Shown in pieces: positions 1 through 18,400 of a stretch of DNA of 64,000 nt. The DNA is from Rhododendron vialii (lineage: Eukaryota > Streptophyta > Magnoliopsida > Ericales > Ericaceae): assembly GCF_030253575.1 (NCBI RefSeq), contig NC_080564.1, positions 6,244,501 through 6,308,500 on the forward strand, written 5' to 3'. Under the pieces are notes generated by a model. The model saw only the letters and a program-made list of their open reading frames with translations, searched no databases and had not been told where the DNA came from. Both the position numbers and the translations under genes were made by a program. Numbering within the stretch: the first letter of the stretch is position 1; every line of letters begins with the position of its first letter.

Positions 1-82
1 GAAAAGTAGGAGTATAAAGATTCTTTTGTTTCGAAGTAAAAGGAAGACTTGCTCTTTCACGTGAATCCAATGCCCTCACGTA

Positions 83-322
83 CGAGAAATTTTGGGGTGC
101 CGGATGGATACCACGTGGTGTTTGTTCGGCGCATCCGAGTTGTCCATTTCAGTTTTGGACGGCTCGGATTTGGAGAGAGAAAAATGAAAGAGAAAGAAGA
201 GAGAGAGTGATGGGGTGAGAGGAGAGAAGGAGTTTCAATCTGAGCCGTCCAACACACTTTTGGACGGCACGGATGGACTGCTTGGGCACTATATGGACAC
301 GGCCACGTGGTATCCACCCGGT
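83..322. mobile_element. MITE with imperfect terminal inverted repeats and GA-rich core
   Basis: The left arm reads GGATGGATACCACGTGG and the right arm is its near-exact reverse complement (CCACGTGGTATCCACCC). The core is purine-rich (GAGAGAAAAATGAAAGAG). CCTCACGTA occurs at 74-82 and again at 323-331 and may be a 9-bp target duplication. A related element with the same GTGCCGG end and GA-rich core lies at 8116-8386. It sits just beyond the 3' end of the kinase gene. Confidence 0.65.
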
Positions 323-515
323 CCTCACGTATGTTCCAATCACTGCACAAAAGCACACCAGAGGCAGAGACTAAAACAATCTCACAAGTCAAAAAATTAC
401 TAACAACGCAAGAACAAAATGAAGCAAGAATCATGAAGTCCAAAATTTCACTGACATTATGACCACAAATCAGTGAGCAAAAATACACCCATTTCAAGGA
501 CCGTTACATTTTCTC

Positions 516-2706
516 CTAGAAAAACTCAAATTCCAAATAAGGACCGGATGACCTATCTGATGACCTATCTAAGGGCAAGGGTGACTTGAATGTTTCGTTA
601 AAGAACGTTAAATCAACTGGTTTAGGAATCTCTGGAGGGCTATTACTGCGAATAAGAGCCCAATTAACACTTTCAAAGAAGGGATGTTGTTTGATATCTG
701 TTGCACCTCTTTTGTATCCCAATCTTTTCTGTGGGTCCTTCGCGAGCAAACCCTTGATCAAATCCTTCGCTGCAAAACTAACCGACGATCCCTCGGGAAA
801 TTTGAGAGAATGACCAACTACATTGAATAAAGTCTCCCGGTTTCCATTTCCTTTAAAGGGTGTCTTCCCGTATAGCAGCTCGTACAAGAAAACACCGAAT
901 GTCCACCAATCAACGGAACTCCCATGTCCATCTCCTCTTATGATCTCCGGCGCTAAATATTCATGGGTCCCAACAAATGACATGGACCGTGCAGCAGTGG
1001 GCTCCGCAATTAGCATTGGACGGGAATCCGAATTTATCGAATTTGTTCGTTCCCGTTTCGGTTTAGTTGTTTTCGAATGGAAAATACGGGGCTTAAAGCA
1101 GGAGGGTTGGAAACAAGGAGGGTTTGCACATACGGGTAACTTGTATGGCGAATCAATGCATGATGGCTGGATACAGTACGAAGAGATGGTGCAAATCGGT
1201 TCGGAGGTGGACTTAATGAGTGTGGGACTCACGTAACACCTTAGCGATAAATCAAAATCCGTTAGCATAATATGACCATCTTCCCTAACAAGAACATTTT
1301 CGGGCTTTAAATCTCTGTACACCACACCCATCATATGTAGATACTCAAGGGCAAGCAGCACTTCTGAAGCATAAAACCTGCAACGGAGAAAATAGAAAAA
1401 CATGTTAAAATTTGAATTCGAACTATGCAGGAGGGTGCTAGAAAGCAATGTCATTAAGTTTAAATTGAGCTTGACCAACAGCTGAGGGAGGAAGTTTTCA
1501 CAACATAATAATTGTGTACAACAACAATGTTCGATAAAACATGTTTGGAGGATAATATTCAAGGATCCTATTTGGACCAAAATTTGAGATAGGTGCTTTT
1601 CACAAAGGCTAATGACTAGGGGATAGTGAGGTTACCACACTCGAGAACTAAAATGTAGATAGGTTTAGCATCTATCGGTCTCTATCATCGTGATAATACA
1701 AAAGTAAATGATTTTCAATTAGCACTTGTCTCCATCTTTATTGGAGTAATTACTATACAATGTACATCTAAAATACTAGAACCCCCAACAGCAAATGTAT
1801 ATATATAGCTTCAACTTTCTTTCTCATTCTCCAAACAACCAAGAACAAGCACACACAAAAAACCAAGAAGTTGAACTTCACCAGCTATTTAGGACCATCA
1901 AAGATCTTTTTATTTAGTTCTCTAATACACAAATCAAACAAGCGATACACAAAAAACGAAACTACGTATGATGGAAAGAATGCTATCCAAAACTATATAT
2001 GAACTAACCTTGCAGCTTGTTCAGAAAAATGCTTCCCCGGCTGACGCTGCCGAAGAATATGGAGATCCCCTCCACTGCAAAACTCCATAAGCAAACAAGA
2101 AAACTTCTCCGTCTCAAAGTGCGAATAAAGGGTAGGGAGAAAAGGATGGTCCAACAGACCCAAAATGTCCCTCTCGGTTTGTGCTCTCATCAACTTCTTC
2201 CTCCCTTCTAACATTGCTTTATCCATCACCTTCATCGCAAACAAGCAACCCAATTTTCTCAACTCCGCCAAATACACACTCCCTATATCCCCAAACCCTA
2301 GCTTCTTCAAAAGCCTAAAATGCCCCAAACCCAATTCCCCGTCTTTCGCCTTCACACATTGGATTGCATCCCACCTAATGTCATTACTCTTATGAGGTTT
2401 GGAATGAAGAGAGCTTCTAAAACTCGCCTCGTTCGCATCTACGCTATCGCAGAAGCTCACACAACTCAAACTGCTATACTCACTCTCCACACCCTCATCT
2501 TTATCCCCTTCCACAATCAAAGAACTAATCATTTTCTCTCCCTCAATAGTACCACTACTCACTTCACAATTTGCACTGTTATCAGACCCATTAACGATAC
2601 TGCTACTAACATCAATGCTAACACTCTCATTGAAAGTAAGGTCTTGAAAACGGACCCTAAGGGATTGGTTATTACAACGCGGGGCACTGTTGGTTAGGTG
2701 GCTCAT
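516..2706 (-). CDS. D6PKL: AGC-VIII Ser/Thr protein kinase, D6PK-like
   Basis: Two exons, complement(2009-2706) and complement(516-1377), joined across an intron with AG|GTTAGT donor and TTGCAG acceptor. The reading frame is continuous and gives 519 residues. A serine-rich N-terminus of about 125 residues precedes the kinase domain: glycine loop GFGDIGSV (137-144), catalytic Lys in AMKV (159), YRDLKPEN (253-260) and TDFD (272-275). DFD in place of DFG defines plant AGC-VIII kinases, and the roughly 75-residue Cys/Pro-rich insertion before the [10 protein letters not shown] activation segment is also typical. The C-terminus ends in LEFEFF, resembling the hydrophobic PDK1-docking (PIF) motif. 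In this family D6PK-type kinases phosphorylate PIN auxin efflux carriers at the plasma membrane; that role is inferred here. The start is the first Met, with no upstream in-frame extension seen. Other AGC1 members are possible. Confidence 0.93.
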
Positions 2707-3030
2707 GACTTGCGGGAGTGGGGCGCCTCAAGGTGTTTGGTGAAATGCCTGAATGAAAAAGTTTGCTTTAAAAGGTGAGGGAAAAGGTGGGTCTAAGGTT
2801 GGGTGGTGTGGTCAAATGAAGTTTTTGCCAACGCCGAGGTGGTCAAAGAGGTGGGCGCGAAGTGCACTGGGCCAGTGAGTGAAACCTAGGGAGAGAGAGA
2901 GAGAGTGAGGGAGTTTGAATTTGAAATGTGGAGGGCCCAATGAATCTGGGGGACGGGTTTTTTGGGTCGTCTCTTGCAATTCCCTAGAAATGTGAGAGAG
3001 AATAGAGACAAGTTGCAGAATACTCCTTTG

Positions 3031-3060
<30 letters not shown>
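2707..3060 (-). promoter_or_regulatory. Kinase upstream region with (GA)n tract
   Basis: This stretch immediately precedes the kinase start codon. It carries a pure GA run at about 3033-3058 and a second short GAGA tract near 2891-2906. On the coding strand these are CT-rich, as often seen in plant core promoters and 5' leaders. I cannot place a TATA box or start site. Confidence 0.35.
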
Positions 3061-3061
<1 letters not shown>

Positions 3062-3099
3062 GTTGGGAAGTACGAGGGCGACAAAAGCGGTTCGGATTT

Positions 3100-3735
3100 T
3101 TCTAAGCAAACGGCATTTAAAAAGCCTGAAGCCAATGCCGTTACTGTGTACAGTATTACTTTGGTTAAAGTCTATGTATTTTTGGTAATACAGGGAATCC
3201 CGAGCTATCTTAGGCACACTTTGATTAATTTTTACAATTTCTTCTACAACTATTTCACATGCTCACGCATAGAGACAAGGGGATCTAAGGTGGCCCTATA
3301 AATTATTGACAAGAAAAATTAAACGTAACATCTTAAGAAGAAGCAAATTTCTATTAAGTCTGAGGCCAAAACCACTCTGTCAAGTTACTTTGGCCATAAT
3401 TTTCTGGAGAGAAGTACATTAAGGTGCGACTCGGTGTAATACATTGTGGGTGTCAATAATGAATCTTGGACGTTGATCGGTTGGAACGTGAGGAAATCTT
3501 GTGGGTGGTCCATCATAATGTGCATTTTCTAGGAGGGGTTTTTTTTTTTTTCCATGGGTTTTATTATGCTTGATATGGGGTCATTCTTCATGAATGCTGC
3601 TAGAATATTCTCTGGTATGTTTTGGTAGTAACACTGATCAACATGTATGTCCATTTTGGTATGCTTGATAAGTATTATGCAATATGAACTCTCTCTTTTT
3701 AATGTTACTACCCAAAAACTATTCACTGTATTGTG
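3100..3735. other. Intergenic, no gene seen
   Basis: AT-rich sequence between the kinase promoter and a microsatellite. I see no coding exon, RNA gene or clear repeat ends. Confidence 0.5.
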
Positions 3736-3737
<2 letters not shown>

Positions 3738-3791
<54 letters not shown>

Positions 3792-3792
3792 T
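3738..3792. repeat. Compound microsatellite (AT)n-(CA)n
   Basis: About 17 AT dinucleotides run directly into about 10 CA dinucleotides. Confidence 0.95.
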
Positions 3793-3802
3793 ACATATAC
3801 AG

Positions 3803-4180
3803 TTATTTTCTAATGAGGAGGTCCTTATTTTAACTAAAATAAGGACCTCCCCATTTCTCCCATTTTCCAATCGAATTTCGATGATCCGAGCCGCTCAATG
3901 TGTTCAGAACGTGATTTTAAGGGTACCCGCAAGAAATCGGCAAAAAAAATGACCGGAAAGGGCTTGATTTGAGCAGTTTTTATTTGAACCGTTTGATAAA
4001 AACATAACAAAAACTGCTCGGATGAAGTCCTTCCCGGTTTTTTTTTTTTTTTGTTGATTTCTCGCGGATACCCTTAAAATCACGTTTTAAACACATTGAG
4101 CGGCTTGGATCATCAAAATTTGATCGGGAAAGGGAGGTCCTTATTTTATTAAAATGAGATGATCCTTAGGAGAAAGGAAC
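3803..4180. mobile_element. Palindromic (foldback) MITE, copy 1
   Basis: The two halves are near-complete inverted repeats. GAGGTCCTTATTTTA at the left and its complement at the right bracket matching inner arms, such as ATCGAATTTCGATGATCCG against the complement of CGGCTTGGATCATCAAAATT. The centre holds a short GACCGGAAAGGGCTT inverted repeat. No coding capacity. Confidence 0.8.
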
Positions 4181-4197
4181 TATATATATATATAGTC

Positions 4198-4545
4198 AGG
4201 TTCCGGTGAGAGATCCCACATTTTATTAAAATGCGGGACTCCCCTTCCCGATTGAATTTCGATGATCCGAGCCGCTCAAAGTGATCAGAAAGTGATTTTA
4301 AAGGTCCCCTCATGAAATCAGTAAAAAAAATGACCGGAAAGGGCTTCATCCGAGAAGTTTTTATTGAATGGTTCAAAAAAAATTGCTCGGATGAAGCCTT
4401 TCCCGGTTATTTTTTTTTCTGATTTCTCGCGGGGACTATTAAAATCACGTTCTGCACATATTGAACGGTTTGGATTTTCAAAATTTGATCGGGAAATGAA
4501 AGTTTCGCATTTTAACAAAGTGAGGGATCCCTCACTTGATCCGTG
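4198..4545. mobile_element. Palindromic MITE, copy 2 of the same family
   Basis: It shares the inner arms of the element at 3803-4180 (GATGATCCGAGCCGCTCAA, GACCGGAAAGGGCTTCATCC) but has a different outer end, GTGAGAGATCCCACATTTTA, mirrored at the right as TGAGGGATCCCTCAC. The two copies lie head to tail with a short AT repeat between them. Confidence 0.8.
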
Positions 4546-4901
4546 GTGTGTGCGTGTGTGTGTATATATTTATTTATTTATTATGTGGGTTTGGCTGATT
4601 AAATCGAATGAGTATCTCTAGCCCTTGGTAGGCGGTAAAAATTATGGTTCTTGATCCTTCTCAAGAACCGTCGTGGGTCTGGAGTCCCTATGATTATATC
4701 CAGAAGAGAGTTGCGACCTTTTCAGTCGCCCCTCCTCCACACTTTTTTATAGCAAAAAGTGATATTCTGTTGTGAGAAATAAAAACTTGTCTTGGGAAAA
4801 ACTATTTCCAATGTATTAAGAATTTGTTTTTTTTACTACTCCACTTTCTAAAGAATCCGTTTAGAGATACCGTAACACTTGTTAAAAGCCAAGACCAGCT
4901 G

Positions 4902-5036
4902 GCCCAGCCTAAAATTTTTAGCTAGATATTTAATGGGCCTCTTCAGTTAGGCCCAAACTAGAATCCTAAACGAGCCTTGCCCGCATTAGGGCTCGGTCCA
5001 AAACTGCAAAAATTAGGGTTTCTGTACTTTATAAAC
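4902..5036 (+). promoter_or_regulatory. snoRNA-cluster promoter: site II elements, telo-box, TATA
   Basis: GGCCCA/TGGGCC motifs (site II) occur at 4902-4907, 4934-4939 and 4950-4955. They are followed by a telo-box TTAGGGTTT at 5013-5021 and a TATA-like TTTATAAAC at about 5028-5036. Site II plus telo-box is the standard promoter pairing of plant ribosomal-protein and snoRNA genes. The order and the spacing to the first snoRNA (about 190 nt) fit a polycistronic snoRNA transcript on the plus strand. Confidence 0.7.
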
Positions 5037-5227
5037 TGAGAGAAATCAAATGGTACTCGTCTCGACGTCTCCCATAGTTCTCGACATTTTGTTCTCCTTA
5101 ATGTGCTTACTTTAGAATTATTTTCAATCGTCTTTTCTTCGATTGTATTTAAGTCTCCGATGATTCTCGTCTATTTTTCATTACTTTTTCTTCAATCAGT
5201 TGGTTTTTTTTCCAATCCGAATTCACT

Positions 5228-5309
5228 GGGAGATATGATGAGTAATTCAATTTGGTCCGTGTTTCAGATTCAACCGTGACCGACAAACCTTAACCAATCT
5301 CTGATCTCT
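5228..5309 (+). ncRNA. U18: Box C/D snoRNA U18
   Basis: Box C ATGATGA (5235-5241) and box D CTGA (5301-5304) are closed by a terminal stem, GAGA against TCTC, abutting the boxes. The internal box D' is CAGA (5265-5268). The antisense element TTGGTCCGTGTTTCA (5252-5266) is perfectly complementary over 15 nt to the conserved 25S rRNA sequence TGAAACACGGACCAA. Counting five nucleotides from D' places the methylated base on the A of AAACAC, the known U18 target (yeast 25S A649). A degenerate C' (CGTGACC) lies between. First member of a three-gene cluster. Confidence 0.9.
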
Positions 5310-5407
5310 TTCATCTGGGTCATTAAAATTTTTTTCAAAAGTATTTTCTTTTTGAAGTTGTGATTGTTTTCTGGTAAATTAGGGTTTTGATTTGGTTTTA
5401 TGTATGC

Positions 5408-5509
5408 AGCAGTGGCTCAGTGATTACATGCCTGATTTATGGGCAATATACGCTATTCCGATTGAATACATGAGCAGAGGATTTTTGAGAATGAATGAGA
5501 GCTACTGCT
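5408..5509 (+). ncRNA. Box C/D snoRNA with long terminal stem, 18S rRNA target
   Basis: An 11-bp terminal stem (AGCAGTGGCTC with GAGCTACTGCT, one G-U pair) closes exactly onto a box C-like GTGATTA (5420-5426) and a box D-like ATGA (5495-5498). Each box departs from consensus by one base. The antisense AATATACGCTATT (5445-5457) is perfectly complementary over 13 nt to the 18S rRNA sequence AATAGCGTATATT. It is followed by CCGATTGA, which could supply D'. If CCGA is D', the target is the G of CCAATAGCG. The weak boxes lower certainty, but stem, spacing, guide and cluster position all agree. Confidence 0.75.
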
Positions 5510-5615
5510 TCTACTAGAGCAAAGATTTCTAGTTTTGTAGGGAAGGGTTTTCATCAATTTTCCTCTCTTTTTTTGTTCTTCTGAATTTTGATGTTTGGGG
5601 TATTTTTTCTGTTTC

Positions 5616-5705
5616 TGCTATGATGAATCATGAAAAAATTCACATGTCAGACTTCAGAGATTTGTAAACAAATCTATGAGAAGGAAAATTTCATGTTTCT
5701 GAGCA
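5616..5705 (+). ncRNA. Box C/D snoRNA, snR58/SNORD104-like (25S rRNA target)
   Basis: Box C ATGATGA (5620-5626), D' CAGA (5655-5658) and box D CTGA (5699-5702), with a short TGC/GCA terminal stem. The guide CACATGTCAGACT (5641-5653) is complementary to 25S rRNA AGTCTGACATGTG over 13 nt. The base five nucleotides from D' pairs with the C of GAGTC. That is 14 nt downstream of the U18 target and corresponds to yeast 25S C663, the snR58 site. Third gene of the cluster. Confidence 0.85.
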
Positions 5706-8115
5706 ATCTTTTCTTTTGAGTGTTTGCCATATGGATTGCCAAGGGGGTTTGGAATTTGGAATGTGGAAGGTTTGGAATAAAGCTTTCAATTTTTCAGAAC
5801 CAGAATCAAGCTGCTTCCGTGGCTTGGCATCTTTGTGCAGTTTATAAAGACATAAAACAGTAAGTTAAAAAATTGTCTGCACCTATGTGATCAAGAGTCT
5901 GAAGTATATGGAAAGGCTAAAGCTAAATTGTTAGAACGATGACGGTTACAGAAACCAGCCTTTCAATCTAGTATTGTTTAGGGAAGATTCAAATAGACGG
6001 AGTAAAATCATAGGTATTTGAAGGTTTATTATACCATATTACCATTGGTGTGATTAGAAAGTTCACATTTTGTTGGACTTATGAGAAGTTGAGAGATTGG
6101 CCTTCAGTTTGGGTGAATCCTTGAATGCTGAGACCTGAGTTGATTCTATGACCAGGGAAATCATCCCGAGTACTCTTCATTTAATAGCCAATACTTCCCA
6201 GCATGACTGTGTGAGGATGGAATTTACCCTGGTAGATCAGCCTGGCAAGTTGTGAGAACAATGTATTCCTATTTTCCATCGGGACAATTGGTATTTGGTT
6301 TCTTCATTCTAATACGTGGCAGACCTTCCTTGGCAGATTCGTTTCAATTGAGGATAGGATTATCAGTCGGGGCATGATCATAAAAAAATAGCCGAAAAAT
6401 GAAATTACATTACGAAGATTTTCTTGCCTTCTAGAGGAAACGCTAACTCAATCTCGACAAGTTGGGTATACCTTCTGGGCAAGAGTAACATTGGCAGTCT
6501 GGCAGATCCCTTCTGAGTTGCCAAAGAAAGTGGATTGGGCCTGTGATCTCAATTGCCAAAGAAAGTAGATTGGGCCTGATCTCAACAAAAGAGAATTCTA
6601 GCTGCGACATTGCCTAAAACAAGTTGTCTTTAGCCGCATTGACCCTCCGCTAGCCAGTCAACGGTGAGATTGATTCTTCAACAATACAAGACGCTTTCAC
6701 GCTTATGCTCAGCTCGCGCACCTGCAGTTGTACGCGAATTATGACTTACTGTATGACTAATAATAATACCTATCCCGAACAATAGAAAACTGTATTGAAT
6801 TTTTACAACTACAAATTAAGATTGAAATCTTTTATGAGGCAACTTATAGTGGGTGTTTGGTGCAGCTTATTTCACCGGATTATGGCTCATGATTTTGCAT
6901 TTTTGGAATGTTTGGTGCAGATTTTGAGGATGGATTTTGCCAAAATCACTTCTTAAAATGGATATAAGTAGACACAATCCCGAAGATTACTTTTTAAATA
7001 TCTACAAAGAAAAATAAGGTCATGTATATAGATAATGAATAAAGAACAGCAAGGGCATCATTGGTTTTAAATAAAATATAAAAAAAAAGACCATTTGGTC
7101 ATCAAATACTACTTAACACATCCTCCTCAAAGGTAAATTGCGGTCAATATGTCTAATCTAAGTCTATCCCATATAAGATAAGGGTTTTGTGTCCAATATA
7201 TGTTGCATAGTCTCCCCTTTTCGGTGTAAATTGAAAAATGTGTATTTGTTTTTGGACCCTGCTTCTTAGGAGTCTCTAATCCGGGTTTAATCTGTAGGAA
7301 GCAACTACGTTTCAACCGTTCTTTTTTATAATTAATGGTATAAGTTTTTTAAAAAATTTAATCATAAGATAGTTGTCAATAGAACTGTCATTAAATATGG
7401 ATCATTACAATATTTTTGAAATGTTGTGATTGCACGGATTATCCTCTGTAGTCCAAAAATGGGTTGCAAACTTGCAATGAAGCCGGATTCTTTCTGGTTT
7501 TTTGTTAATAAATCTTCATAGATCTCAAAGGTTAGAGAAAATGAAAACCTAGGCTGAGGATGATATAAAAAGATAATACACAAGGCTTCATTGTAGGAAA
7601 ATATACAAATGAGTTACTTATTAAAAGAAAATATTAATAAGCTCCATCCACATGCTTTGGACTCGATACCCCTTGCACATAGAAAGAATTAAGAATGGTG
7701 TAGTCTCAATGGATTTGCTCCCCACACAATTGATCAGGATTCGATTTCGGCGGCCGCAAAAAATAAATTTCTTGTAAATCTTCTAGTCCCGACGTGGATG
7801 TCCTGTCTTTGACCGAACTAAAAAAGAGATTAATTGAGATGTTCATAACTGGCCTGGACATCTAAACCGTCAAAACAAGAAAAGTTGCGGAAGCATAAAA
7901 GAACATTCCTGTGTAAATGGGGCACGGAGTTGCGAGAGGGACAGACTTCAAGTTACTTTGGTTTATTGTGCATTTGTATATTTCGGACTCAGGGGGCCTG
8001 TGGTGACTTCCGTGGCCATTATTCTGTTCAACCTAATTTATAAAGCTTCATTTATCTTGTACTGCTATTGTTTTGGATGTAAGTGTTGACTCCTACTGTT
8101 TCAAGTCTTCTCCGA
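5706..8115. other. Downstream of snoRNA cluster; no confident gene
   Basis: No ORF resembles a known protein. A small direct repeat lies at 6518-6586: two units beginning TTGCCAAAGAAAGT, each about 35 bp. An inverted pair GTGCAG/CTGCAC near 5835-5882 could be part of an H/ACA RNA, but no H/ACA boxes convince me. The stretch 7650-7800 contains a tRNA-like B box (AGGATTCGATTTC), possibly a decayed SINE. Confidence 0.4.
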
Positions 8116-8386
8116 CAAAATTTTGGGTGCCGGCAGGGGTACCTATCGGTGATTCAGACCGTTTCAACGTGTTTTGGACGGTTAAAATTTTAGAGAGAAA
8201 AAAGAGGAGAGAGAGTGGTGGGGTGAGAGATGAGAGAAAAGAGGAGGGGTGAGGGAAGAGAAAAGAGGAGAGAGAGCGGTGGGGTGAGGGAAGAGAGAGG
8301 GAATAAATCTGAACCGTTCAGAACACGCTGGTTCGGACCGTTGACGGATATCGTCACGTGGTACCTGCTCGGCATCTAAAAACTTG
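8116..8386. mobile_element. MITE related to the element at 83-322
   Basis: Terminal inverted repeats: TTTTGGGTGCCGGCAGGGGTACC at the left, GGTACCTGCTCGGCATCTAAAA at the right. Inner arms CAGACCGTTTCAACGTG and its complement bracket a GA-rich core made of repeated GAGAGAGTGGTGGGGTGAG units. Confidence 0.7.
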
Positions 8387-8396
8387 CATTTCCTCA

Positions 8397-8714
8397 CTTA
8401 ATGTTTGAGTTCAAGTCTTCTACACTCACAAAAGCGAAAAAGGTGTATTTAGATTTCCTCGCTTAATGTTTGAGTTCAAGTCTTTGTAGCTGTTTGATGG
8501 GGTCAAATCCTTTTTTTTTTCCCTCGAAGTTTAGCGCCCAATGCACGAAATGAGACTTAAAGTTTGAGTTCAAGTCTTCTACACTCACAAAAGCGAAAAA
8601 GGTGTATTTAGATTTCCTTGCTTAATGTTTGAGTTCGAGTCTTTGTAGCTGTTTGATGGGGTCAAATCCTTTTTTTTCCCCCTTGAAGTTTAGCGCCCAA
8701 TGCACGAAATGAGA
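8397..8714. repeat. 159-bp tandem duplication (two copies)
   Basis: Units 8397-8555 and 8556-8714 are nearly identical; each begins CTTAA(T/A)GTTTGAGTTCAAG and ends GCACGAAATGAGA. The few differences are single bases and T-run length, so the duplication is recent. No coding content. Confidence 0.93.
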
Positions 8715-8718
8715 CTTA

Positions 8719-8940
8719 GCCTGTTCCACAACACTTTCTTAAAAAATAAATATTTATTTCACATTTTCGAACTAGAAAATAATGCAAATAAAAAATAATT
8801 TTTTGATTTTTTTTGCACCGTATAAAAGATTTCATCGAGATCTTTCAAACAAGATCCATATTGCATATTCTTAAATTTCAGTAAACCAATTATTTTTTTA
8901 ACTTGAAATTACCTTCTTTAAAAAAAAGACTTATTTCCCA
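8719..8940. mobile_element. MITE, family also at 10033, 16554 and 63325
   Basis: Shares the interior GTATAAAAGATTTCATCGAGATC and flanking ATTTCAGTAAACC with the clearer copy at 16554-16792, plus arms of the type CTTTCTTAAAAAATAA. The left end CCTGTTCCACAACA matches the family end (GGCTCTGTTCCGGAA). The right end is eroded. Confidence 0.6.
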
Positions 8941-9379
8941 TTATAGACGGGACGTCGAGACCGCAGCTTCGATGTGGATGGGTTGTGTGGTGTCCTACAA
9001 AGGATTGTTTGTTGTTGAGGTCAATACTTCCTCACCTAATCGTCACCACAATTCATTTAATGATTCTAGCCATTCATTTTATCGAATTTGATGCCTACAT
9101 TTATTTTTTTAAAAAGTTATTGGAGATCAATAACGACTTGGTCGAAACATCCATGTTCGTTTTATACGACGATCGCTTTCTGCTGTTAAGACAAATTTTA
9201 TTCCATCAAATGGATACCGAGATCCAAGCAACTTACAGTAATTTTTTTGCATGGTTCAAATTTTCAGTCACACAAGAGACCGTTACGTGAACGGATCTTA
9301 CGGGAACGGATCTTGATTGACTCCCTAGTGGTACGTGGCATAGATTTTGTGGATCAATAATTTTAACACCACACTCATT

Positions 9380-9412
9380 TACACACTCATTCACACACAC
9401 ACACACACTCAC
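9380..9412. repeat. (CA)n microsatellite
   Basis: A run of CA/CATT repeats. Confidence 0.85.
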
Positions 9413-9499
9413 AACAAGGGAGAAGCGCACATACACTAGATGTGTAATGTGTGATCTATAATACACATCTCTTAAAAAGTGTGTATTATATGTACCTAT

Positions 9500-9765
9500 T
9501 TTATAGTTCATTCATAACATTTTAGTGTGTTTCGTTATTTTTGTTCTAGAACTCATAATTTTCAGCAATACAATTCGTAACATTTTCATTATGATTTATA
9601 ACATTTCGGTGCATCTTGTAACTTTTATACTAAAAAATCATAACTTTTTAGCATTACAATTCGTAACATTTAGAATTCGTAGTTTTTACACTAAAATCGT
9701 GTAATTTTTTAGTAATACGATTCGTAACATTTTATCTATAATTTATAATATTTTGGAGGTGCAGA
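9500..9765. repeat. Degenerate repeats of TTCGTAACATTT type
   Basis: Motifs of the form ATTCGTAACATTTT and ATAACATTTC recur about every 60-70 bp, separated by (A/T)-rich spacers. It resembles the internal architecture of the larger AT-rich elements at 34426 and 52455, but I cannot define ends. Confidence 0.45.
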
Positions 9766-10032
9766 TGATGCATACCCAAATAAAATATGTATATTGTAGT
9801 CCCTGAGTGCTATAAAATTTTCTTTGGTCAATTCATACGAGGCTGTCTACGCTTTGTTCACTTTGAGGTTCCCAGAACCAACCCTTCTCTCTCGGCATAA
9901 TTTCTAATAACTTTTCTTCCACATTATTATTCTCTCTCTCCCTGCATATTATCAAAAAACTTCCCTAGAAAACCTTTACCAAAAACAACCCATAGGGCCA
10001 ACGCTAGGCTCTAATTAGTTACTACTGTAGTT

Positions 10033-10275
10033 CGGTGCCATTCCGCTTTCTTTTTAAATTTTTTTTTCAAAAAAAAGGTAATTTCAAGTTCAAATATAAT
10101 GAAAATGAAAATTAATTTATCAATTTTTTTTGCACCTTTTAAAAATCCTAAAAAATATATATTAAACAATATTCATATTGATAGAAAAATTATTTACGTA
10201 AATACATAATTTTTTAATTTGAAATTATCTTTCTTTTCGAAAAGTTCTTTTTTCAAAAAACTGGAACAGGGCTGA
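10033..10275. mobile_element. MITE, TGTTCC-ended family
   Basis: Ends GGTGCCATTCCGC and CTGGAACAGGGC, with arms TTTTTTTTCAAAAAAAAGGT and the mirrored TTTCGAAAAGTTC. The interior TTTTTTTTGCACC and TTTGAAATTATCTT matches the copies at 8719 and 16554. Confidence 0.5.
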
Positions 10276-10446
10276 ATTCCTATTTGGCCCTCATTCCCCC
10301 ACGGCCAGCTAGGCTCTATTTGTCGTCTTGAATTTTTCTATTGACTGACCTGAGAACCCACCAAACAAGAATGACACTGAAGCAACTACGCCATTTATAA
10401 CATCACCCTGTTTTTTTAACCCAGTTCAAAAGCAGGTCCATACGAA

Positions 10447-12524
10447 GTAAATTGCTTTTCCCCCCTCCCCTGACACCACACCCCCCGGACCCCACCGCCT
10501 TTTCCCGATTTACCCCCCTCCCCCAACCCTGCAATTCTTTTGCTTATTTAATTGTCTTTATTTAATTTCTTAATTTATTTATTGAATTATAAAATTCAGT
10601 TTTTTTGAAAAAATTAAGTGTTCCAAATTTCAATCCGTTTAAACCGATGAAAAGATTTAGATTTTTGATCATTTTATTTTAAATGATCATAATTAAATTT
10701 TGTCTCTAAGGCTCTCGTTGATTAGCACTAAAAAAGTTATAGAGTTAAATATTTCTTAGGGCTAATCAACGAGAGTCATAGAGTCCAAATTTAACTATGA
10801 TCATTTAGGATAAAATGATCAGAAAACTAAAATCTTTCCACCGGTTCAAACGGATTGAAATTTGGAACACTTAATTTTTCAACATCTTTAGACAGTTTAT
10901 GTATTAAAAAATATGGTTAAAAAATTAAGTATTCCAAATTTCAATCCGTTTGAACAGGTGGAAAGATTTTAGATTTTTGATCGTTTTATCCTAAATAGTC
11001 ATAATTAAAATTTAACTCTAGGACTCTCGTTGATGAGCCATAAAAAAATCGTAGAATCAAATATCTCTCAGGGCTAATCAACGAGAGCCATATAGTCAAA
11101 ATTTAATTATATCCATTTAAGATAAAATGATTAAAAAACTGAAATCTATCCACCGGTTCAAGTGGATTAAAATTTGGAACACTTAATTTTTCAAAACCTC
11201 TTTAGACAGTTTATATATTAAAAAATATAGTTAAAAAATTAATTGTTTCAAATTTCAATCCGTTTAAACCAGTGGAAAAATTTTAGACAATTTTCCCTTA
11301 ATATATAAACACTTAATTTTTCAACATCTTTAGACAGTTTTCCCTTACTTTCAAAACTGTCTAAAGAGATTGAAAAATTAATTGTTCCAAATTTTAATCT
11401 GTTCGAACCGACGGAAAGATTTTAATTTTCTGATCATTTTATCTTAAATGGACATAATTAAATTTTGACTCTATGGCTCTCGTTGGTTAGCCCTAAGAGA
11501 TATTTGATTCTACGACCTTTTAGGGCTAATCAACGAGAGCCCTAGAGTCAAAATTTAATTATGACTATTTAAGATAAAATGATTAGAAAACTAAAATCTT
11601 TCTGCCGGTTCAAATAGATGGAAATTTAAAACACTTAATAAATGTGGCCTATTATTAGTTCAAAAAAAAAAAAAAAGACCTGACAGAATGAAACAAAGAT
11701 TTTATTTTTCTGATCCTTTTATCTTAAATAGTTATAATGAATTTTTAGCTCTAAGACTTTCAACGAGCTCCCTAAGAGACCCCTAGAACCAAATATGAAA
11801 AGTTCAAAAAAATCTTATGTGATTTTCGATGAAAATTAATGACTTATTAATCTTAAAAAAAATATGTGATTTTGGACTTCCCTTAAAGGAAGAAAGAACA
11901 GATTTTTGAAACATGCATCGGACGAAGATACAGGATGGGCGGCTAGTTATGGAACACGTTTGCGATTGTAGTACGAAGTAATGGGTATAAGCGCGCCGGG
12001 AGCAGCATTTGGAGGAAATATTGATTAGAATTTGTGTTTTTATGTATTTTCATGTTTTGACAATATGTACTCAATTATAATAAAATAAAATTTTATTTAA
12101 ATTTATTATTGTTCATTACAAGTTATTTTTATTATTCATTGTTAAGACAAATTAATTAACTAATTAAAATAATATAAATTTATTAAGTATAAAGTAAATT
12201 TTAATTGAAAATAGAATTTGAGTTAACGAAAAAAAAAGAAGGGAGGTAAATGGGAAAAGAAACAAAATAAAGAAAATAATTGAAAATTACAAAAATAAAA
12301 AAAAAGATTCAAATTGGAAAGAAAGATAAGGAAATAAAGGGAAAAAAAATCTAACCGGAAAAAAAGAAAAGGAAAAAAAGAGGGAAAAAAAAAATTCTAA
12401 CGGGAAGAAAGAAAAAGAAATAAAGAGAAAAAAAAATAAGGAAAAAAAAGAAGCAAACTGGCAACGGGTTGGGGGTAAGGATGGAAATGGGTGTGGGGTC
12501 GGGGGGGTGGGAAAAGCAGGTCTC
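10447..12524. mobile_element. Non-autonomous Mutator-like element (MULE), 2.08 kb
   Basis: CCATACGAA at 10438-10446 and 12525-12533 is a perfect 9-bp target duplication, the size made by Mutator-class transposases. The termini are long pyrimidine/purine-rich inverted repeats of roughly 80-100 bp: TGCTTTTCCCCCCTCCCCTG at the left, GGGGGGGTGGGAAAAGCA at the right. No transposase is present. Inside lie palindromic modules (10600-11640) and an A/G-rich tract (12230-12440). Confidence 0.75.
10600..11640. repeat. Array of foldback modules inside the MULE
   Basis: A module of about 150 bp, beginning ATTAAGTGTTCCAAATTTCA and ending GGCTCTCGTTGATTAG, is followed by its own inverse. This palindrome is repeated about three times in various orientations, with (T)TTAGACAGTTT linkers. 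Related modules fill the 0.9-kb element at 57649-58545. Confidence 0.85.
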
Positions 12525-14447
12525 CCATACGAAACTAGTACTCGTACTCGTACTATTTTACTAGGATTTTAAATGCTGACCTCAGAATGGACAGATGGTT
12601 CAACCTCGTTGAACATGTGAACGATGACTTTTCTCGGTTCGCTTTCCGTCTCCATGGGACCTTCCCTTCCTATATGACTTTCTTTAATTAACAGAACAAC
12701 TGACTAATAAATTACTACTACTAACCAACATTCTAGAGAGAGAGAGTGTGTGTGTGGGTGTGGGTGTGGGTGTGGGTGTGTGGGTGTGTGTCATGTGTTC
12801 AAGCACTATAAATATGGAAGTTGACAATGGGTAATGGTATACACATGCAACACAAATACAAGGTAATTGTGCGAGAAAGAGACCGGGAACAGAGTTGATA
12901 GAGGTCTCTTGTCGCAGGAGAGATGACACTTGCATTGTCTCCTCCCAAGATGGAAGCAAGTGTCGTCTTTCCTACGCCAAGACATCTTTGCAACTTTAAT
13001 CGCTTGCGTGTTTCCTTGGTTCAATAGGAAGGTGCTTCAATTACTGTAAGTGCACAAATATGTAGGCCGTTGGGCATATTAGGTTGGCTGTTGGGAACAG
13101 AGTTGATGGGGGTGTTTCCACAACTTTTTGGTATTGTTTTTATTCAAATTGTTTTCCCGTTTGTTTGTTTTGCGCAAACTTTTATGAAATATATTGGTTT
13201 GTTTCGACAAAAAAAATTGAAAAAATAAAAAATTAAGACTTTTACACCAGTATTTTGAAAAATATCCATCGAAAAGCAAAAACAATTGAATAAAGACGAG
13301 ATCAAAAAGTTGCGGTCCACAACTTGTTGGTTAGTGGAAACACATACTATTTTCCCTTTCCTCCTCCTAGGCGATATGCTCTGAGATTGTGTCATCACAA
13401 TGTCTTTCTTTTTTTTGGACATCTTCACAATGTCTTTTTTTTTTTGGTCATCTTCAGAATGTCTGTTTTCAAGTATATACTGTATAAGCTAGCAGATCCA
13501 TCACTCAAATGCCATATAGCAACTTCAAGTTTCAGCTCAACGAATTCTCGCTTAGACGCCGAAATTAAAACATCATCAAAATAAACTCCACAAGTACATA
13601 CCTCTTTGATCTTCCTTCTCAGCAGTTTAAAATCAAGATTATTTGTCAGCATGATTTTAGAGCCGTGACGGGGGAAGATTATAGCACTTCAGTCAGTGTA
13701 TAGCTAGTAAACTCACCCTCAACCCCATGAAATTACAGAAACACAATAATTGCAGAAAGAAAGCCAGTCGTAATATACCAGAAAGATGAAATTGATCAAA
13801 TAGGCAAAATATCAGAACATCTTTGCAGAGATTGCTGCATATGGTGTCTGGATTGGAAAAGAAAAAGAAAAAAGAAATTGTTGCAATGTGAAGATAAAAA
13901 GGACCTGATCAGAGACGGGTTAATGCAACAACAATAATAACAGAACCCATCTATTCTCCAATTATTGATGACATGGGTAGGGGAAAATTGTAAACAGACC
14001 TAATCTTTGGCAATATAAACAATGATCCCCCTATACCTCTAAGAACCGAGGAGCGAAAGGGACGTTTTGTTGTCGAACCATACCTCTAAATTAAAGCCAA
14101 AAGACATCACATAAGGCAGGCCTAAAGACCCAAATTAATTTCTGTGCAAAATATCGGGTTAATGCATTAAATATAAACTGACGTTAAAAATATATATCAT
14201 GTAATTAAAGACAGTTCTATGCTACATCAAACTTATTATCAACCAATTCGTAAAGGTTATCGTACAAGAGATATCCCCTAATGTTCTCGATCCTGTCATT
14301 CTACCGGGGTTTTCCCTACAGCTTTAGGTCCCCACACAAAATGCCAAAATGCATTTGCCAAAGCCCAGATGAATATAAATTCAGGAAAAAATGGGTGCAA
14401 AATGGGCTACACGTAGATACGGAAAAAAACCCAGAGCAGATGCATGT
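12525..14447. other. Intergenic, mostly unexplained
   Basis: Contains a (GT)n/(GTGTGG)n microsatellite at about 12733-12791 and a short direct repeat GGGAACAGAGTTGAT (12886 and 13095). Nothing else could be named with confidence, apart from the exon-like fragment at 13471-13690. Confidence 0.4.
13471..13690 (-). pseudogene. Exon-like fragment, unrecognised
   Basis: On the minus strand an open stretch reads IIFPRHGSKIMLTNNL then DFKLLRRKIKE and ends at a good splice donor, AAAGAG|GTATGT. An in-frame stop lies a few codons upstream, and I find no partner exon. The composition looks protein-like, but I do not recognise the family. It could be a gene fragment captured by a transposon. Confidence 0.3.
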
Positions 14448-14643
14448 ATTCGACTTCACCGCAACAGCAGATTGCCTCAGTTATGTCCACCAATTCATTG
14501 CCTCGAGCCTACAAGCCACGGAAATGGGTGACGCTCTCAGCACTCCTTTCCTACCTGCACAAGTACTGACTACCTTATTCTGCCGTCTTCCCCTTTATGT
14601 ATAGGCCTATTTACATGAGAACTGCCTTTAGAATAGCTATTTG

Positions 14644-15418
14644 TTATTTGCACTGCCTCGGTCGGAATTTCTCACTTGATAACAGAGAACTTATCAAATT
14701 TTCCAGCCGTTTTGCTCCGGCACTAGGACGGATGACTGTAATATTACCCACAACAGAGCAAGGATCGGTCCCATTTTCCCTGCTTCCTATGCACCATCCA
14801 CCAGGGACCACCATGTCTTTACCACGAAACAATAGTTCAGAATCGATCTTGTCAAGCACCGGATCGTCCATGCGGAATTTTCTAGCAAACGGGGCGTTAC
14901 TGTCCACCATCTTCGTCATGTTGTCAACAGTAAGGTAGCAAGGGTGCTGCTTGGGAGGGTTGTCCCAAGATATGAAGTGGAGGTCACTATTCACAGTGGT
15001 GTTGCGGAATTCTTCAGCATTACAGATGACTGTGTGGAAATAGCCTTCTGGGGAGGATATGAAATTCGCATAGTACATGAGGACTGTTCGAGGTAAGTTG
15101 TCCCATCCCCATATGCAATAATCAATGAATGGACGAGAAAGCGCCATCCAAGCAGAACCTACAGAAACAAAGGAGAAATTGAGTTGAGTTTCATCGGCTT
15201 AAAATGGCCATTCAGCTTAAGGATTCTTAACAAACACAAACTCTACATGATTCTTGCATTGAATGCTACGACAAATGTAACTCCATGTTTCCATTCGAAA
15301 ATATCATGCAATATGGCATGATTCTGAATTAGGTATTTCCAAGCATCAGGCAGGCTAAACAGGCTGACTTACACGAACGCACATACACACACATATAGAG
15401 GACAGAATGGGAAAACAA

Positions 15419-15455
<37 letters not shown>

Positions 15456-18400
15456 TCACGGAAATCAGAGGACTGAGAGAGGGGGAACCCACATTAACAA
15501 TGTGAAAGCCTGACTTCAGGAGGTAAAACAAGAGTAGAACCATGCACATAAGAGAGAGAGAGGGAGAACCCACACTAACAATGTGAAAGCTTGACTTCAG
15601 GAGGCAAAACAAGAGTAGCATCTATCTTAAAGCCATAGCCTCCTTTCTGAAATGGGAACTCCACCTGCTACTCAAGAGTAGCTGTGGCATTAAGGTGATG
15701 CAACAAAAGGACCACATTTTCAATTGGGGGAGGGAATTGAGGTGAGGGATGTTAGCAGCAAAAATGGAATATGTGGGGGGAAAGAGGTTCAGAGATGCTG
15801 GCATGCTGCGCAAATGGCAAGTGCCTAAAAAAACTCTGATAAATTCATAGAAGTTCAATAGTTCATGCAAACACAATTAAATGCCAACTTAACATAAATA
15901 TGTCACAACACAATAATAGACACCAAGATAGTTAGAAATTGAAGGCCCAACCAACTGCAGAGAAATTTGTGGGGCGGGGGGGATCAAAGGGTTCACCAAG
16001 AGACAATGCAAACACCAGTAAATACATTGAACAGGAACATAAATTTTTGTTTTTGATTAGGAACAGAATATGACATGCTGAAATGGTTAAATGAGAAGGT
16101 TCACAAACAAAGGAGCCACAGTGGTAACGACAACAGGACCCCAGACAAAGGAAAAAGATAAAGTAGAAAGCATTGCGGCACAGTGGGTAAAAAGTCATAG
16201 ACTTGGTTGTATTTTCCTGTTTTTTCTCATATTTCTTTCCCATTGTCAAGAATAACATCGGTTTGACTTGAATCCAACTCACCTGCTTTATTACTATCAC
16301 AGCTTTATCCCAAGCCAAGACAAATGTTGGTTTGAGTTTTATTAATTAATCTTGGGCTGTATAGTGCAGGCAACTATACACTTACATCATTTTGTGTGTG
16401 CAATTTTACTCCTTTAACATACTAAACTAGCCAAGTAGCCATCTGTTCAAAGATATTACGGTACAAGTACATAGTTGTGTGATTAGTGGCTTAGCTATTA
16501 GCTGTCTAAAAGCTACGGTAAAAAAAAAATCCCTTTCGAAAATAAACCACTTAGATCCCGTTCCAGAAACCTTCTTAAAAAATAAGCAGCTTATTTTACA
16601 TTTTCAAACTCAAACATAAAGTATATGAAAAATAATTTTTCAATTTTTTTTGTGTCGTATAAAAGATCTCATCGAGATCTTCCAAACAAGATCAATATTG
16701 CATATTTTTAGATTTCAATAAACCCATAATTTTTGAGCTTGAAATTGTCTTCTTAAAAAATAAAGACTTATTTTCGGTTCCGGAACAGAGCCTAATTAGT
16801 ACTACCACCGCACTTATGAATATAGAGACTCATGTAGAATCAAGTAATCAACAATGAAAAAAGTTTGTCTTCACATGCATACAAAGCCACAAACTGTTTT
16901 AATATCAAACTATAGGGCTTTGAAAGATCCAGCAAAAGAATAGAGCTTCAGATAGTGCAGGAGTTCAAGACAAAAAGATATCGAACTCAAGCTTCAACAA
17001 CACTTGTAACAAGTAATGTGACTAATAAGTTCAACAAAGTATTATGCAAAAACTAAAATAGAAGGCATCATCTGACAATGCAATTTGAGCTTTCTTCATC
17101 CCTCAAAATAAAACTACAATGGTATTTGTGGAGGGATTGATTGCTCTGTTTACTTTGAGTAGACAAGGCCCAACATTCCAGCCTTTATCTCAAGTTGACC
17201 AACCACAAAATGAACTTGTTAGTGCCAACTGGCAAAAGATGACCAGAGGGCACGGGCACTCCAATGCTTAAGTCAGTCTCTTTGAGATAGTACTTAACAT
17301 TAGAAGCCTTAAATATGGAATACCTCTTTTAGGGCTTTATCGCATACTTTATTTATAAAGAGACTTGCTCTCCAACCATTTCGTGTCCAGCTTGCTCTTC
17401 TCTTGGCCTTGTGGCCAGGACATCATCATGTAACCGTCTCAAGAACTCCAACACGTCATGCATGATGTTTGAGGACCTCTGCACCGAGCGCATCACACAG
17501 CCCAAACAGGATCGGCTTTTGACCAACACCCCCCCCCCCCCCCAGTAGTTTGCAAGCCCACCTGTAGTATCACAAGCTTGTTCCATTCAGCCGACCTGGT
17601 AACCCGGATGGGCTGTGGGCTTACCATTCTGTGTTTGGCTCTCAACATTAGGCCTAGTTTCCCAAAAATGCCCAAAGTACTAACGGGGCTTTTAACTAGG
17701 CCTACATTAATTTATAAACAGGTCTCAATTAGCGGAGAGACAGGAAAAGACGAAGGTCCAATTCGAAATAATTTCATCTTTCTAGCTCCTCGAGGAATAG
17801 ACATGCTTACAAGCTACAACAAGCACAAACGGAATAATAGTATCAACAATTAGTTGTCCAACTTCACCCACACAAGCAAACCACATTGTTTATTCGACAC
17901 AAGACCCATAACATAATATACTTACTAAACAAGAACCAATCTATAGTAAAAAAATTGAAGTCCAAATGATTGGATAACTGATTAAATTATGCAGAATTTG
18001 TACCTCCAAAGAGCTTGAAGGCTGTCGGCACGCTTCTTCGCTGCGTAACCCTCAAAATATCAGCTTTCTTTGCCATATACAACCCTGGATCAACAATTAC
18101 TGGTTTTGCCCTTTGATTCCTACATAATTTAGAAGTACATAAATTTATCTGCACACCATAATTAGTATATAAGAAAGTTTTAAAATTCTATACAAAAAAT
18201 GGAAATCACGTACTCTTTCCACCCAATATCACTGGTATGATCGAGGAAATTAAGATCACGCGGCAGATACGAGAACGTGTGAAGCAGATCTAATCAAATT
18301 AAATCAATCAAAAACACATTAAGAAAAAATATTCACCCATCTACTCGACTAACCAAATTTAATCAAACTTTTTACAGCCCCTTGGATTGTAAGAAAGTGA

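Follow-up and report, generated by a model that had tools for sequence, protein, structure and literature searches.

Polycistronic clusters of box C/D small nucleolar RNA (snoRNA) genes are described in Arabidopsis and rice (PMC8053127 and PMC5122169), and the cluster analyzed here, from a 64,000-nucleotide stretch of Rhododendron vialii DNA (contig NC_080564.1, positions 6,244,501 to 6,308,500; the window), likewise contains several C/D units in one direction separated by short spacers. The resemblance to these clusters extends to an apparently intergenic siting, a promoter with a telo box and site II elements, and the presence of duplicated copies. The window cluster is an ordinary plant gene cluster of an already known type, and its three small RNA genes, U18, U54 and snoR64, should act as methylation guides for ribosomal RNA (rRNA), as predicted from their boxes and pairing. 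Two copies of the cluster are present in the genome, the window copy and a C10 paralogue (locus L020); a fourth gene is kept in the C10 copy and is reduced to a fragment in the window copy. The original prediction had proposed a three-gene cluster behind a site II/telo-box promoter, with guides for two neighboring 25S sites and one 18S site, and had read the pairing of neighboring guides as coordinated modification. The cluster itself was confirmed, and the gene identities, promoter type and three targets held up; the step to coordinated modification was not supported.

Guide RNAs and their predicted targets

Target nucleotides were assigned as those opposite position 5 upstream of a D or D' box, with about 9 bp or more of pairing taken as the criterion for a guide, and pairing was to plant 18S and 25S letters other than the species' own. 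All three genes exceed this length. The D' guide of U18 (5251-5264) pairs with 25S 657-670 over 14 bp, placing A661 at the methylation position, while the D' guide of U54 (5445-5457) pairs with 18S 595-607 over 13 bp, placing G599 there. The third RNA, snoR64, pairs through its D' guide with 25S 671-684 over 14 bp and would target C675, which we take to be yeast C663 and which lies 14 nt from A661. The U18 site in yeast is A649 (PMC8817022). By the same rule, the guides here fall on the sites of Arabidopsis U18 (A661), U54 (18S G599), SnoR58Y (C675, U676) and SnoR13 (18S U615, 25S U3301). In the case of the third RNA and SnoR58Y, both of which place a D' guide on 25S C675/U676, the identity meant is one of function.

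In U18, a GAGAT/ATCTC stem encloses a C box (ATGATGA, 5235-5241), a D' box (CAGA, 5265-5268) and a D box (CTGA, 5301-5304), with C and D exact to consensus (C RUGAUGA, D CUGA). U54 carries GTGATTA at 5420-5426 (C), CCGA at 5458-5461 (D') and ATGA at 5495-5498 (D), and scores above its Rfam gathering score of 40 (RF00206). The C and D boxes of snoR64 are also exact to consensus. Terminal stems of 6 bp (U18) and 7 bp (U54) appear in the predicted folds; z-scores for the folding of single units, between -2.25 and +0.52, were mostly uninformative. The name U18 is given to the window gene because of its guide and paralogy, and not because of the Rfam cut-off. For the third gene, PMC8053127 lists a "SnoR64" for 25S U2884. 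By eye, no fit to U2884 was found against the plant 25S letters, whereas the D' guide fits C675 as above, and this candidate target was set aside as a matter of naming.

Several observations weigh against this assignment, which we still regard as very probable. A 25S 21-mer was absent from the species' own assembly by exact search, so that the species' own target strand was not seen; the guide RNAs, as well as methylation at A661, G599 and C675, are predictions from sequence. Window U18, at 34.8 bits, falls short of its Rfam gathering score of 41 (RF00093); the C10 paralogue scores 44.6. Beside the guides of U18 and U54 the window has D' boxes that depart from consensus, where C10 has CTGA in both genes, and the C and D boxes of U54 each carry one mismatch to consensus, though they are near the Rfam U54 consensus. 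For the third RNA, no closing terminal stem appears in the predicted fold, and only about 3 bp (TGC/GCA) are seen by eye. In addition, the review PMC8351944 names only the U18 site, numbered 660, as described in expansion segment 7, with numbering that varies between papers.

The rRNA patterns were also searched more widely. All three had 0 matches in viral contigs, and the search of genome contigs returned 11 eukaryote-like contigs. The sequence after GAAACACGGACCAAGGAGTCT varies in these, and in none of them does it match the plant letters at that place. These eleven contigs (L001-L011) hold eukaryote-like large subunit rRNA sequence filed as bacterial genomes, presumably contamination. Separately, within window 5251-5290 and in the U18 of L020, the U18 guide GGUCCGUG folds on a downstream, rRNA-target-like stretch, CCGUGACC, that is unchanged between the copies; in this folding model the pairing is possibly a competing internal hairpin.

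Table 1. Features of the snoRNA cluster and its upstream region (window coordinates)
Feature	Position	Strand	Evidence
Site II elements	4901..4955	.	GGCCCA at 4901 and 4950, TGGGCC at 4934; motif scan
Telo box TTAGGGTTT	5013..5021	+	Motif scan
TATA-like TTTATAAA	5028..5035	+	Just 3' of telo box, read from sequence
U18 (SNORD18) box C/D snoRNA	5230..5308	+	Rfam 34.8 bits, below cut-off; pairing; site table
U18-U54 spacer, with dispersed-repeat piece	5309..5395	.	Own-genome matches
U54 box C/D snoRNA	5414..5503	+	Rfam 45.9 bits; pairing; site table
snoR64, third RNA	5612..5706	+	Rfam 77.5 bits; pairing; site table

Promoter and duplicated copies

The motif scan bears out the proposed promoter type: a telo box and site II elements lie upstream of the first snoRNA, as in plant polycistronic snoRNA clusters transcribed by RNA polymerase II. 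The C10 paralogue has the same elements, with a telo box, GTTTAGGGTTT, at 1102-1112, the nearest site II motifs at 1017, 1030 and 1062 (motif scan), and, by alignment, the identical TATA-like string TTTATAAA after the telo box. Processing of a single precursor into separate snoRNAs is putative here, by analogy with the described clusters. An intronic position in a host gene was rejected, as no coding exon adjoining the cluster was seen by eye among the 52 open reading frames (ORFs) of positions 1-16000 (three scanned against Pfam; short or noncoding exons could escape). The spacer between U18 and U54 contains a repeat piece matching nine other places in the genome at 78-83% identity over 56-87 query nt, with no such match within L020; the piece may have been inserted in the spacer or may form it. 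Because it lies within this dispersed-repeat-derived stretch, a telo-like box, AAATTAGGGTTT, at 5376 was rejected as a second promoter.

Between the two copies, identity is 100% in the guides of U54 and snoR64 and covers 13 of the 14 alignment columns of the U18 guide; in spacers and flanks it is 26-48%. Shared flanking genes were sought by tblastn of 413 window ORFs (at least 50 aa) against the 60 kb surrounding the C10 copy, which gave 17 matches from 10 frames, mostly multi-place and repeat-like; the kinase and Branch ORFs of the window had no match within this region. Upstream of the C10 cluster (L020:846-983), several below-cut-off matches to plant microRNA precursors fall on both strands, as expected of an inverted-repeat element.

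All three Rfam scores are lower in the window than on C10. One possibility, at somewhat less than even chances in our judgment, is that the window cluster is a duplicate in decay, for the most part redundant, and that most of the guide RNAs come from the C10 cluster. Yet all three window guides retain 13-14 bp of pairing, the window copy has its site II, telo and TATA-like elements, and degenerate D' boxes stand beside working guides in three named Arabidopsis cases (PMC8053127). The third gene of the window may still matter, because its C box (ATGATGA) is better than that on C10 (GTGACGA). We therefore keep to the reading of the window copy as the more eroded duplicate that is, from its sequence, probably still functional.

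Neighboring target sites

The two 25S duplexes abut (657-670 and 671-684) and the two 18S duplexes are separated by a 3-nt gap (595-607 and 611-622), so that the four-gene copy has two pairs of neighbor-site guides. Such pairs were found in 0 of 9 other plant clusters at any distance tested (eight from PMC5122169 and HID2 from PMC8053127; two of the ten PMC5122169 clusters were left out, one with the single family U36 and one with families absent from the site table), nor, by reading of the table in PMC8053127, in the HID1 cluster. In the article passages searched, no statement of this cluster's gene order was found.

The nearest known parallel, by analogy, is provided by six Arabidopsis snoRNAs, each of which serves two sites 11-18 nt apart with its two guides (PMC8053127). 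In these, for example U24, SnoR19 and SnoR22, one RNA serves both sites, whereas here the guides are separate RNAs of one cluster. In human 28S rRNA, the equivalents of A661 and C675 are Am1326 (1313) and Cm1340 (1327), also 14 nt apart and guided by SNORD18 and SNORD104, and both are among the sites listed as vulnerable when fibrillarin is depleted (PMC5597630). This equivalent spacing indicates that the site pair is old. The human guides differ in lying apart, SNORD18 and SNORD104 being in separate host genes and not in one cluster, and neighboring sites thus need no shared transcript.

Whether the pairs form a module for modification of neighboring sites was weighed against random draws from the site table (109 sites, 88 guide names), in which 67 of 3,828 pairs of families target sites no more than 16 nt apart. 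At least one pair within 16 nt occurred in 5.2% of random three-family sets and 10% of four-family sets, and the neighbor pair among the window's three genes is unremarkable. Two disjoint pairs occurred in only 0.09% (within 16 nt), 0.11% (within 20 nt) or 0.21% (within 30 nt) of random four-family sets, a post hoc figure uncorrected for how many clusters a genome contains, and the two-pair pattern of the four-gene copy is suggestive at most. This rarity, together with the closeness of the duplexes, the dual-guide Arabidopsis snoRNAs and the shared fibrillarin sensitivity of the human equivalents, favors a module, which we nevertheless regard as quite improbable. The three-family rate and the lack of any such pair in the nine comparison clusters argue instead for chance co-residence, in which two unrelated guide pairs came to share a cluster without functional meaning and were kept by duplication of the whole cluster; we consider this rather probable, despite the rarity of two disjoint pairs in the permutation. 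Thus coordinated modification, as originally proposed, is not supported.

If neighbor pairs did prove nonrandom across plants, the gene order of snoRNA clusters would carry information on rRNA folding. Present in two copies, this ordinary cluster offers, within one genome, a clean case of duplication of a known cluster type. One copy is losing a gene and its boxes are drifting, so that the pair illustrates a way in which guide clusters that are redundant may decay.
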